In this document: piece by piece, positions 46,420 to 50,293 of the stretch
Layout of the letters: every line of letters starts with the position of its first letter
Numbering within the stretch: the first letter of the stretch is position 1
Assembly (NCBI GenBank): GCA_034006035.1
Contig: JAVETN010000001.1
Span: 344,532 to 408,531 of the forward strand
DNA length: 64,000 nt
Source: Desulforegulaceae bacterium
GTDB lineage: Bacteria; Desulfobacterota; Desulfobacteria; Desulfobacterales; JACKCP01
Direction of reading: 5' to 3'
Position numbers and translations under genes: made by a program
Notes under the pieces: generated by a model
The model's input: only the letters and a program-made list of their open reading frames with translations
The model's database searches: none
What the model was told of the DNA's origin: nothing

Positions 46420-47354
46420 AATTTTTCAAGAACCCTCATTTTTGTACTTCTTGCCCTTGGGTTTGTACTGATTTCAATATCAGTGGGTATAAGAGGTTTT
46501 CTTGTAATAATTTTAAACTCTTTTTTCTTGCCGCAAACGCACATTGGAAGATCAGGTGGGCAAATGCAGGCTTTTTCAAGTTCTTTAAACTTATTTTTCA
46601 CTATTCTATCTTCAAGGGAGTGGAATGTAAGAATACAAAGTCTCCCTTTGGGTTTTAGGAGATAAGGTGCTTCTTCAAGAAATTTTTCCAGATGATAAAG
46701 TTCATTGTTTACTTCAATCCGGATTGCCATAAAACACTTTGTTGCCGGATGAATTTTGGATTTTCTCGAAAATTTATTCGGGATTGAGTTCTTTATGATT
46801 TCAGCCAGTTCTGTTGTTGTTTTTATTGGCTTAATTTTCCTTTTGATTTCAATCCTGTTTGCTATTCTTGAAGCAAATTTTTCTTCCCCGTATTTTTTGA
46901 AAACTAAAAACAATTGTTCTGTTGAATAGTTGTTTATAATATCATAAGCTGTTTGGTCTGAGTTTTGATCCATTCTCATGTCAAGAGGGCCTTCTTTGGT
47001 AAAGCTGAAACCTCTTTTGGCTTCATCAAGATGGTGGGAGGATACCCCTATATCCGCAAGGATTCCATCAGCTTTATTTATTTTTTTTTCTATCATCACT
47101 TGCTTTATCGATGAAAAATTGGCCCTTGAAACAGTGTACCTGTTTTTAAATTCAAAAAGAACTGTTTTAACATTTTCTATTGCCAGCTCATCTCTATCCA
47201 TAGCAAGAAGTCTGCCTTCAGGTGAGCTCTTTTCAAGAATCAGTCTTGAATGACCTGCTCCTCCAAGGGTGCAGTCAATATAAACTCCCCTGGGATTTAT
47301 ATTGAGATATTCAATTACTTCCTCAGGCATCACCGAGCTGTGAGAATATTTCAT
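46416..47354 (-). CDS. rsmH: 16S rRNA m4C1402 methyltransferase RsmH
   Basis: 312 residues. Starts Y-S-H-S-S-V-M-P-E-E-V; SAM motif D-C-T-L-G-G-A-G-H-S; the family motifs A-D-I-G-V-S-S-H-H-L-D, G-P-L-D-M-R-M-D and F-H-S-L-E-D-R-I-V-K are all present. It methylates N4 of C1402 in the ribosomal P site. Two bases separate it from mraZ. Confidence 0.97.
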   Translation of the reverse strand: MKYSHSSVMPEEVIEYLNINPRGVYIDCTLGGAGHSRLILEKSSPEGRLLAMDRDELAIENVKTVLFEFKNRYTVSRANFSSIKQVMIEKKINKADGILADIGVSSHHLDEAKRGFSFTKEGPLDMRMDQNSDQTAYDIINNYSTEQLFLVFKKYGEEKFASRIANRIEIKRKIKPIKTTTELAEIIKNSIPNKFSRKSKIHPATKCFMAIRIEVNNELYHLEKFLEEAPYLLKPKGRLCILTFHSLEDRIVKNKFKELEKACICPPDLPMCVCGKKKEFKIITRKPLIPTDIEISTNPRARSTKMRVLEKL

Positions 47355-47356
47355 AA

Positions 47357-47803
47357 TTAAAGCCCAAGCTCGGCAATCTCTTCTTGAAAGTCTTCAAGTA
47401 AAAGATCTTCTGCCAGTTTATCATTTTCTAATTGCCAGTTTTCTTTAGACCATATTTCAAAATGTTCTAAAACCCCAACAAGAACCACATCTTTTTCAAG
47501 GCCAGCATAATCTCTTAAAGACTGGGGGATTATAATTCTGGACTGTTTGTCCAGTTCGCATTCTGCAACTCCACCTATAAATGTTCTGAAAAAGCGACGC
47601 ATTTTTTCGGTTTTAATTTTTTGATTTTTAAAATTGTTTTCAATTTCAATCCATTTTGACTCGGGGTAAGCTCTTATGCAGTTGTCCATTCGCGTAAGGT
47701 AAAGTACAGGTGTTTCCTCTGACTCAATATCTTTTTTGAATCTTGAAGGAACACTTAACCTGCCTTTTTGATCAAGCTTGTGTGATGAACTCCCCCGGAA
47801 CAT
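47357..47803 (-). CDS. mraZ: Transcriptional regulator MraZ
   Basis: 148 residues with two SpoVT/AbrB-type domains: M-F-R-G-S-S-S-H-K-L-D-x-K-G-R at the start and A-E-C-E-L-D-K-Q-S-R in the second repeat. MraZ is a ring-forming DNA-binding regulator of the dcw cluster, including its own promoter. AAAGGAAT lies ~5 bases before ATG. A matching operator core is 123-139 bases upstream but in inverted orientation. Confidence 0.95.
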   Translation of the reverse strand: MFRGSSSHKLDQKGRLSVPSRFKKDIESEETPVLYLTRMDNCIRAYPESKWIEIENNFKNQKIKTEKMRRFFRTFIGGVAECELDKQSRIIIPQSLRDYAGLEKDVVLVGVLEHFEIWSKENWQLENDKLAEDLLLEDFQEEIAELGL

Positions 47804-47850
47804 ATAAATTCCTTTTTTTACCTAAATTTTCCTTTCGGATAGTAAATCTA

Positions 47851-47879
47851 CATATAATACAAATAAAATTCAAGAACAA
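47851..47879 (-). promoter_or_regulatory. Candidate promoter of the dcw cluster
   Basis: On the minus strand TTGTTC (47879-47874) and TATATG (47856-47851) are 17 bases apart, about 50 bases before the mraZ ATG. An overlapping TATTAT at 47859-47854 is an alternative -10. Moderate match only. Confidence 0.4.
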
Positions 47880-47925
47880 ATGTAAAAACCCCTTGTTATT
47901 TTGGATATTTTTATTTTTTTATACG

Positions 47926-47943
47926 TGTGGGGCAAAGTGGGGT
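47926..47943 (+). promoter_or_regulatory. mraZ box: Putative MraZ-binding site (two GTGGGG repeats, 10-bp period)
   Basis: TGTGGGGCAAAGTGGGGT on the plus strand holds two GTGGGG units exactly 10 bases apart (47927-47932 and 47937-47942). The core TGTGGGGCAAAGTGGG is, from memory, identical to the E. coli operator just before mraZ. Here it lies upstream of the likely mraZ promoter and on the opposite strand. Confidence 0.5.
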
Positions 47944-48345
47944 GAAAATTTAAAGAGTTTTATGTTTTATTGATCTTGTAGATTTTATTCATCTACTTTA
48001 GTACTTGGGGTATTTTAAAAAAATACAAAGGAAGATAAAAAGTTTTTAAGATAAGGATTTTATACAAACAAATTGATTTAACCATGATTTAGAGTATTAT
48101 AAACAACTGTAAAAAAGGCAGATTTTTTAGATGTATTTATATCCAAAGCCTGAAAGGCTCTTATTGAGTGACCTTGAGGGTTTAGATCTGTGGAAAGGCA
48201 TTAAACAAACTAATTTTCAACTTGTCTTAGGGTAGAATTTTTGTGCTCTTATTTTTTAATGAAAAAACAAATTTGCTCTCAAAGAGAATTTTGTTTTATG
48301 AAAATATTTATGTGAATTTGTAAATCTAAGAAGGATATACTAAAA

Positions 48346-49026
48346 ATGGGGAAAAACCTAGTAACTCGGGTTGACGACTTTGTAAAAATCAGCACTGTTC
48401 TTATTTCAGTCTCTGACAAATCAGGGTTGGAACAATTTATTTTAGAACTTGTCAAAATTAATCCTGATATAAAAATTCTTTCAACCGGAGGAACCTATTC
48501 CAGGATAAGTGAAATTTTGGGTGAAAAAGCAATAAATGTTCTTTTTCAGGTTTCAGATTATACAGGGCAACCTGAAACCCAGGGCGGGCTTGTAAAAACT
48601 CTTGATTTTAAAATCTATCTGGGAATTTTAACTGAAACATACAATGATTATCATAAAAAAGACCTTGAAAGAACATTGGCTCTTCCAATAGATATGGTTG
48701 TGGTAAATTTATATCCTTTTGAGGAAACAATTTCTAAAAATGATTCAACTCCTGAAAAAGCAAGGGCAAATATTGATATTGGCGGGCCTTGTATGATACG
48801 AGCTTCTGCAAAAAACTATTTAAGGGTTGCCTCTGTTGTTTTCCCAAAAGATTATGGAAAAATAATTGATAAAATGAAGGAGCAGGGCGGATGTCTTGAT
48901 CTTGAATCAAGATTTGAATTTGCCAAAAAGGCTTTCAGGCATACTGCGGACTATGATAATGCTATTGCTTCTTATCTTGAAAAAACATCATATTCTAAAA
49001 AAATTGAACCCTGCTATAAGCTATAA
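48346..49026 (+). CDS. purH1: IMP cyclohydrolase (N-terminal half of PurH as a separate gene)
   Basis: 226 residues, covering only the MGS-like and IMP cyclohydrolase domain of PurH. Typical segments: L-I-S-V-S-D-K-S-G-L, L-S-T-G-G-T-Y, V-S-D-Y-T-G-Q-P-E, V-V-N-L-Y-P-F-E, and N-I-D-I-G-G-P-C-M-I-R-A-A-like. It closes FAICAR to IMP, the last step of de novo purine synthesis. An ordinary PurH continues into the transformylase domain; here TAA 49024-49026 ends the chain and a new gene with its own ribosome site starts 17 bases later. The gene symbol is provisional. Confidence 0.9.
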   Translation: MGKNLVTRVDDFVKISTVLISVSDKSGLEQFILELVKINPDIKILSTGGTYSRISEILGEKAINVLFQVSDYTGQPETQGGLVKTLDFKIYLGILTETYNDYHKKDLERTLALPIDMVVVNLYPFEETISKNDSTPEKARANIDIGGPCMIRASAKNYLRVASVVFPKDYGKIIDKMKEQGGCLDLESRFEFAKKAFRHTADYDNAIASYLEKTSYSKKIEPCYKL

Positions 49027-49042
49027 GAAGGAGAATTAGGAA

Positions 49043-50293
49043 ATGGTAAAAGATTTAAAAGAAATGTATAAAAGAATGGATGGTGACAGCTTTCCTTCCT
49101 CTATGGAAGTAAGTTTTTCTGATGATAAAGGCAGGCAGACCCTTTTTTATGAAAAGGTTGCCTGGGATATCAAGGGCGAAGCTAAGGGGCTTAGATATGG
49201 AGAAAACCCAGGACAGGAAGCAGCTCTTTACAGACTTTCAAATGGAAATCTTGTGCTTGGTGACACTCAAATAATTCAGCCCGGGAAATATCTTGCTTCT
49301 GATATTGAACTTCTTCAGTCTGGAAAACATCCTGGAAAAACAAATGTAACCGACGCAGACAATGCTCTTAACATTTTAAGGTACTTCACAGATTCACCTT
49401 CATCTGTAATTGTAAAACATAACAACCCTTGCGGTGTTGCAAAGTCTGACACTCTGGAATCTGCTTATACAAAGTCATATTTCGCAGACAGAATTGCAGC
49501 TTTTGGAGGATGTATAGCTCTTAATAGAGCTGTTGATCTTGCTACTGCTCAAGCCATAGCCTCCCAGTACGCTGAAGTTGTTGTTGCCCCTGAGTTTGAA
49601 GAAGGAGTAATGGATGTTTTTGCCAAAAAGAAAAATTTAAGAGTAATGCAAATAAGAAACATTGAAAAGCTTCAGACATTTGTCGGCCTTAGAACAATTG
49701 ATTTTAAGAGCCTTATTGATGGTGGAATTATTGCTCAATGGTCTTTTGTTCCTGAAATTCTTTCTTCAAGTGATTTTAAAAAAGCGGAGTGCGATTACAA
49801 AGGCAATACATATAAGGTAAACAGAGAACCAGACCAAAGAGAGTTAAAGGACATGCTTTTTGGATGGCTGGTTGAAAGCGGGGTAACATCAAACTCTGTG
49901 ATTTATGTAAAAGATGAGGTTACTATAGGTATAGGAACAGGAGAGCAGGACAGAGTCGGTGTAGCTGAAATTGCAAGGGACAAGGCATATAAAAAGCTTG
50001 CTGACAGGTATGCTTTTGAACAATTTAAAACCCCTTATATTCTTTTAGACAATGAAGACAGGAAAAATGAGATAGATGAAAGGGTAAAAAATGAAAGCGG
50101 CGGACTTAAAGGGTCTTGTATGATAAGTGATGCTTTTTTCCCTTTTAGGGACGGTATTGACGTAGGTCTTAAAGAAGGAGTTTCAGCAGTTGTTCAGCCC
50201 GGAGGTTCAATGAATGATTATCAGTCCATTGAAGCATGCAATGAGTTTAATGCCTCAATGGTTTTTACAGGTCAAAGAAGTTTTAAACATTGA
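49043..50293 (+). CDS. purH2: AICAR transformylase (C-terminal half of PurH as a separate gene)
   Basis: 416 residues with the AICAR formyltransferase domain: the catalytic K-H pair in I-V-K-H-N-N-P-C-G-V-A, A-F-G-G-C-I-A-L-N, and the C-terminal S-D-A-F-F-P-F-R-D-G-I-D followed by V-Q-P-G-G-S-x-x-D. It transfers formyl from 10-formyl-THF to AICAR. GAAGGAG lies ~9 bases before ATG 49063-like spacing from ATG 49043. An N-terminal extension of ~50 residues precedes the usual L-R-Y-G-E-N-P-x-Q. Same strand and 17 bases after the cyclohydrolase gene, frame +1 relative to it; not a recent frameshift, since each half has a proper end and start. Confidence 0.9.
   Translation: MVKDLKEMYKRMDGDSFPSSMEVSFSDDKGRQTLFYEKVAWDIKGEAKGLRYGENPGQEAALYRLSNGNLVLGDTQIIQPGKYLASDIELLQSGKHPGKTNVTDADNALNILRYFTDSPSSVIVKHNNPCGVAKSDTLESAYTKSYFADRIAAFGGCIALNRAVDLATAQAIASQYAEVVVAPEFEEGVMDVFAKKKNLRVMQIRNIEKLQTFVGLRTIDFKSLIDGGIIAQWSFVPEILSSSDFKKAECDYKGNTYKVNREPDQRELKDMLFGWLVESGVTSNSVIYVKDEVTIGIGTGEQDRVGVAEIARDKAYKKLADRYAFEQFKTPYILLDNEDRKNEIDERVKNESGGLKGSCMISDAFFPFRDGIDVGLKEGVSAVVQPGGSMNDYQSIEACNEFNASMVFTGQRSFKH

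Follow-up and report, generated by a model that had tools for sequence, protein, structure and literature searches.

The window analysed here, a stretch of 64,000 nucleotides, carries on its minus strand a run of genes that starts with mraZ and continues with rsmH (PF01795), a small DivIC-like gene that scores below the Pfam cut-off, and a gene for a penicillin-binding transpeptidase. Divergent to these on the plus strand lies purH, and in the space between, 124-139 nt upstream of the mraZ start, sits the inverted box GTGGGGCAAAGTGGGG. The features of the region are as follows, in order of position.

47357-47803, minus strand: mraZ (PF02381, 1.5e-30), presumed to encode the protein that binds the box.
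47811-47834, minus strand: eroded proximal MraZ operator, without GTGG and with GG at -29, -19 and -9 (period 10).
47845-47850, minus strand: likely -10 element of the mraZ promoter, TAGATT, with a 17-nt spacer, assigned by analogy with the profile of relatives.
47868-47873, minus strand: likely -35 element of the mraZ promoter, TTGAAT, a putative assignment; relatives have CTTGACA.
47927-47942, plus strand: distal MraZ box, in which two GTGGGG units repeat at a 10-bp period, oriented away from mraZ.
47962-47973, plus strand: ATG TTT TAT TGA, in which two codons alone resemble an mraZ start.
48346-49026, plus strand: N-terminal purH gene (PF02142/PF01808), a divergent neighbour and an unlikely target of the box.

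A preliminary description of this DNA had claimed an inverted MraZ-type core upstream of mraZ and beyond its likely promoter, and had likened that core to the one in E. coli. Position, orientation and motif match confirm the first of these points, and the likely -35 and -10 elements, picked out with the arrangement in relatives as a guide, bear out the second. The likeness is right as well: the element with its flanking base, TGTGGGGCAAAGTGGGG, occupies 47926-47942 of the plus strand, and the E. coli K-12 box, TGTGGGGCAAAGTGGGA, agrees at 16 of 17 bases. Within the 64-kb window GTGGG-N5-GTGGG has this single exact match; the 2.64-Mb genome holds three, against two for a reversed-pattern control. 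The relaxed form GTGG-N6-GTGG gives 17 genome matches against 13 for the same type of control, and by chance one would fall into the 300 nt or so ahead of mraZ in roughly 1 of 500 cases. On the distal-box profile of the order to which the window species belongs, the box scores 24.6 bits, the average of the 89 training sites being 23.6. We also considered a genome-wide MraZ regulon and rejected it, given the 17 versus 13 matches and the finding that all six of the other sites whose context was read (out of 16 further GTGG-N6-GTGG sites) lie inside long reading frames. A search of positions 47300-48700, which take in the surroundings of the box and the purH leader, gave no Rfam match to an RNA element at E values up to 1.

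The published systems provide the frame in which this box has to be placed. According to the excerpts of PMC8475190, MraZ acts as a repressor, of its own operon in E. coli and of division genes in M. genitalium, and those of PMC7761207 describe MraZ as an octameric ring and place the four repeats that it binds in B. cenocepacia downstream of the -10 element, over the start site. The Mollicutes repeats are given as AAAGTG[T/G] in excerpts of PMC8475190 and PMC5282649; according to the latter, M. gallisepticum MraZ also binds in vitro to a related motif in which the repeat spacing differs by 1 nt, so some tolerance of spacing is known. Related MraZ structures are found in the PDB, judged by entry name, as 9qlr, 9qlg, 9sx6 and 1n0e. 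The E. coli K-12 box is forward, with its GTGG at -34 to mraZ, and the 434 nt ahead of that gene contain none that is inverted. Like the boxes of E. coli, Burkholderia cenocepacia and the Mollicutes, the window box is a direct repeat of GTGG/TGGG units with a 10-bp period in the control region beside mraZ; those boxes read forward and are placed at the promoter or beyond it, on the side of the start codon, whereas the window box is inverted and precedes the likely promoter. We therefore class it as a distal variant site and not as a classical operator.

We compared 144 mraZ upstream regions of the order, the window included, which span 54 families and 83 genera and come from 45 loci (the window among them), 19 new loci and 80 that were fetched. 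By our own count 182 genomes of the order had an mraZ match, those left out being, for example, low-scoring or contig-end loci; some of the 144 regions are shorter than 400 nt owing to a contig end, and four begin one codon late, which leaves the arm distances unaffected. The searches found no further genome of the window's own family. Upstream of 45 mraZ genes, a strict TGGG-N6-TGGG scan matched in three, because relatives mostly use GTGGA and not GTGGG, and relaxing the motif to GTGG revealed conserved arms. A scan of relatives for position and orientation, which the preliminary description had named as a check, finds the inverted box conserved: CCAC-N6-CCAC at -215 to -110 before mraZ is present in 90 of the 144 regions and in 33 of the 54 families. 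The controls over the same zone gave 2/144 for the forward orientation (GTGG-N6-GTGG) and 0-3/144 for the inverted motif with any other spacing from 1 to 13. In the wider zone from -330 to -80 the exact inverted motif occurs in 98 regions, and the exact forward motif lies within 110 nt of the mraZ start codon in 124; sorted by exact motif, 84 regions have both arms, 40 the proximal arm alone, 14 the distal arm alone and six neither. A profile scan, in which the distal profile was trained on the same genomes and the inverted zone was scanned to -80 and the forward control only to -110, detects the distal box in 103/144 regions (39/54 families) and the forward control in 2/144, leaving 41 regions without a distal box. 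The distal box is a widely conserved feature of the order, and very probably a second site for the MraZ protein.

This conservation bears on the origin of the box. The preliminary description had pointed out an ATG-TTT downstream of it, as if mraZ had once started there and the box were the relic of an inversion. The ATG TTT TAT TGA is indeed present, 19 nt downstream of the box, and this is what speaks for a local inversion; just two codons match an mraZ start, however, and the sequence is probably a chance occurrence and not a relic of mraZ. In relatives mraZ lies on the opposite side of the distal box from the place that the ATG-TTT takes in the window, and the same inverted box is combined with an mraZ in normal orientation and a normal proximal box, so the inversion finds no support. 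A chance resemblance is countered by the retention of the box in 33/54 families and by spacing and orientation controls near zero. Taken together, chance and local inversion are extremely improbable as explanations.

In relatives the likely mraZ promoter (CTTGACA, a spacer of 17 nt and a T-rich -10 element) is located by alignment between the two arms, and the distance from the -35 element to the start of the proximal box is 37-39 nt in 95 of 122 aligned genomes. The TTGAAT of the window fits this arrangement, lying 39 nt ahead of the first proximal slot; the pair TTGAAT/TAGATT was not among the predictions of a simple promoter scan of the window. What departs from the pattern is the proximal arm, which in the window is eroded to three GG while the distal arm stays intact, and the missing proximal box is a more unusual feature of the window than the distal box is. 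The best profile score in the proximal zone of the window is -14.6; the 124 training sites average 25.7. Only one locus scores lower, L036 (-21.9), whose mraZ start is probably misplaced because a forward box is found further up; the next above the window are L030 (-4.9) and L227 (-1.5). Inspected by eye, L036 and perhaps L030 have either a misplaced mraZ start or a longer leader. Three GG with the period and register of the window appear in a fraction of 0.0001 of dinucleotide shuffles, and in 0.00065 at any register, in a test devised after the pattern had been seen; the GG at -9 is also part of a probable ribosome-binding site.

The loss of one arm raises the possibility that the window box is a leftover and that MraZ control is vanishing along with the proximal arm. 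We consider this improbable, since the remaining distal arm scores slightly above the mean of the order, the GG register is kept, and so are all but one of the invariant residues of MraZ. Specifically, D11, K13, R15, D85, Q87 and R89, invariant in 63 relatives, are kept in the window protein, and the sole departure from the residues invariant in those relatives is at position 91 (I; L in the others). The D-x-x-x-R pairs D11/R15 and D85/R89, which we take to belong to the DNA-binding motif, are intact.

The relation between the two arms was then considered in terms of helical turns, using 78 of the 84 pairs; in the six that were excluded the arms are 217-262 bp apart. The distances of 44 genera, taken from one base to its equivalent in the other arm, fall into groups with means of 94.8 bp (2 genera), 105.0 bp (8 genera) and 115.8 bp (34 genera), which correspond to 9.0, 10.0 and 11.0 turns of 10.5 bp. 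In two families (f29 and f34) the members differ among themselves by about whole turns. Eleven genera have distances under 112 bp, and 10 of them deviate by no more than 2.6 bp from whole turns relative to the main group, a tolerance picked after the data were seen; one genus, at 111 bp, is out of phase; the clusters below 11 turns depend on 10 genera. None of 5000 simulation runs was as phased as the observed set, a result that mostly measures the tightness of the main cluster. In the window, the spacing measured to the GG slot would be 93 bp, by our own arithmetic 1.5 bp short of 9 turns. We also considered an RNA hairpin or cruciform formed between the arms and rejected it: the agreement of non-core letters between the arms of one genome is 0.389, against 0.379 in shuffled pairs, with 161 of 1000 shuffles reaching 0.389, and as these letters are no more alike within than between genomes, such a stem or cruciform is unlikely.

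The distance from the distal box to the -35 element, followed in 76 genomes, takes values of 77-83 or 88-95, with one at 69 and none at 84-87. In the order's profile, conserved A/T tracts (for example AATTATTATAAAAA) stand about 26-52 nt upstream of the -35 element at roughly helical intervals; lying on the side of the distal box, they could represent bent DNA or else an UP element.

Dual-operator repressors that loop DNA, such as LacI, GalR and AraC, have operators around the promoter at whole-turn spacing, and MraZ is a ring of AbrB-like double domains. The two boxes of those relatives that have both arms resemble the sites of these repressors in flanking the likely promoter at whole-turn spacing, the difference being that the MraZ ring reads direct repeats; the fixed-turn relation to a partner site, seen in the relatives, sets the distal box apart from the boxes of E. 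coli, B. cenocepacia and the Mollicutes. Our favoured interpretation, which we regard as probable on the strength of these sequence patterns, sees in the box the distal part of a MraZ operator with two arms that serves the autorepression of mraZ. In most of the members of the order examined, a forward box lies just downstream of the likely mraZ promoter and an inverted one 9-11 turns upstream; an oligomeric MraZ ring would grip both arms together and fold the promoter into a small loop, and this loop would tighten repression of mraZ and of the division genes that follow. For the window species we expect a ring anchored chiefly at the distal box, with a weak contact at the proximal site, and repression may be weaker or differently tuned. 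Two boxes around the likely promoter are found by exact motif in 84/144 regions, and because the proximal arm of the window fails the motif and retains only GG in register, a loop is least certain of all in the window itself. The 41 regions without a distal box by profile and the 40 with a strict proximal but no strict distal box count against a two-armed operator. The more specific proposal, that MraZ acts throughout the order as a looping repressor whose ring spans the inverted distal and forward proximal boxes and holds the dcw promoter in a loop of 9-11 turns, and that the lineage of the window is now anchored by the distal box alone, seems to us evenly poised between right and wrong.

Two other uses of the upstream site deserve consideration. 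The arm spacing may instead be fixed to suit a protein that sits in the interval, be it RNA polymerase or another one. Alternatively, the distal box may be an independent upstream site from which MraZ acts on RNA polymerase from behind and without a loop, either as an activator or by blocking the upstream AT-rich contact region. The window, with its distal arm alone intact, would suit this, as would the phased distance from distal box to -35 and the conserved A/T tracts upstream of the latter; activation is conceivable because overexpression of MraZ in M. gallisepticum was accompanied by more FtsZ, according to the excerpts of PMC8475190. The effect published there for E. coli and M. genitalium is nevertheless repression, and with a proximal box in 124/144 regions and both arms in 84/144, joint use is the commonest state, so that a site acting without a loop appears rather unlikely. 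As to the earlier suggestion of activation or repression from upstream, the part that stands is regulation of mraZ from upstream, since genomes from across the order retain the box, spaced at helical distances from the proximal one.

The orientation of the box towards purH had also prompted the idea that it controls the divergent gene. More generally, it might be the operator of a divergent promoter whose gene is purH in the window and another one in other genomes. Among 62 usable loci, 45 have a divergent frame as the longest one upstream, and the distal box is somewhat commoner beside divergent frames (29/45) than beside co-directional ones (9/17, several of the 17 being in our judgement probably spurious). 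In 7 of 17 matched relatives the contig with mraZ also carries the second purH part, in divergent orientation and no more than about 11 kb away. Against this, the upstream neighbours vary while the box persists (an MBL-fold hydrolase, an HD protein, a cytidylyltransferase, a MshEN-domain protein, purH), so that the box does not track the neighbouring gene, and it is retained beside a co-directional YceG gene ending at -248 or -277 (L134 and L142, one genus). Where co-directional frames were checked they were real genes, namely YceG (L134, L142), Sua5 (L144) and a thioesterase (L136), and in these four loci room for a divergent gene is absent only in the two YceG cases, both from one genus. No -10-like element stands ahead of the distal box in the place where the proximal box has one. 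In the window the purH start is 400 nt away, with three promoter-like sites against 3.0 in shuffles. Control of the divergent purH is thus unsupported, an operator for a divergent promoter is quite improbable, and on balance the box belongs to mraZ rather than purH. In a few sequences inspected by eye, the reverse strand shows a TATAAT-like stretch in the interval from distal box to promoter; it has no -35 element at the normal distance and was rejected as a divergent promoter.

The purH of the window is itself split inside the AICARFT domain into two genes in different frames (48346-50293, plus strand; 226 and 416 aa). All 17 matched relatives of the order have the second part as an open frame, 416-459 aa long, and the split is therefore probably old and not a recent frameshift.

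In the open-licence literature we found no recognisable report of a distal or inverted MraZ box, nor of looping by MraZ. Conserved opposed boxes at whole-turn spacing would give the MraZ ring a job, that of holding two DNA arms, and the window species, in which one arm is lost, would be a natural mutant for the question of ring bridging.

Outside the order the distal box is rare. Among 66 genomes of the phylum outside the order, taken from 88 with a match, the forward box is present in 57 and an inverted box in eight, at scattered distances. Four of these loci (L251, L254, L283 and L307) have inverted boxes 167-188 bp from the proximal box, and their distances look as though they rose in steps of about 10 bp, which would fit longer loops in those genomes. 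Of 80 named loci, mostly from Bacillota, 78 have a forward box and 15 an inverted one, all 15 inverted cases belonging to Lactiplantibacillus, Lacticaseibacillus or unclassified Lactobacillus. The inverted CCAC-N6-CCAC of the lactobacilli (among L050-L114) stands at about -158 to -161 to mraZ, and comparable distal boxes may have arisen independently in this group and in a few further genomes of the window's phylum. By eye, the motif touches a terminator-like hairpin in several Lactiplantibacillus; the lactobacillar box is possibly of independent origin or part of a terminator.
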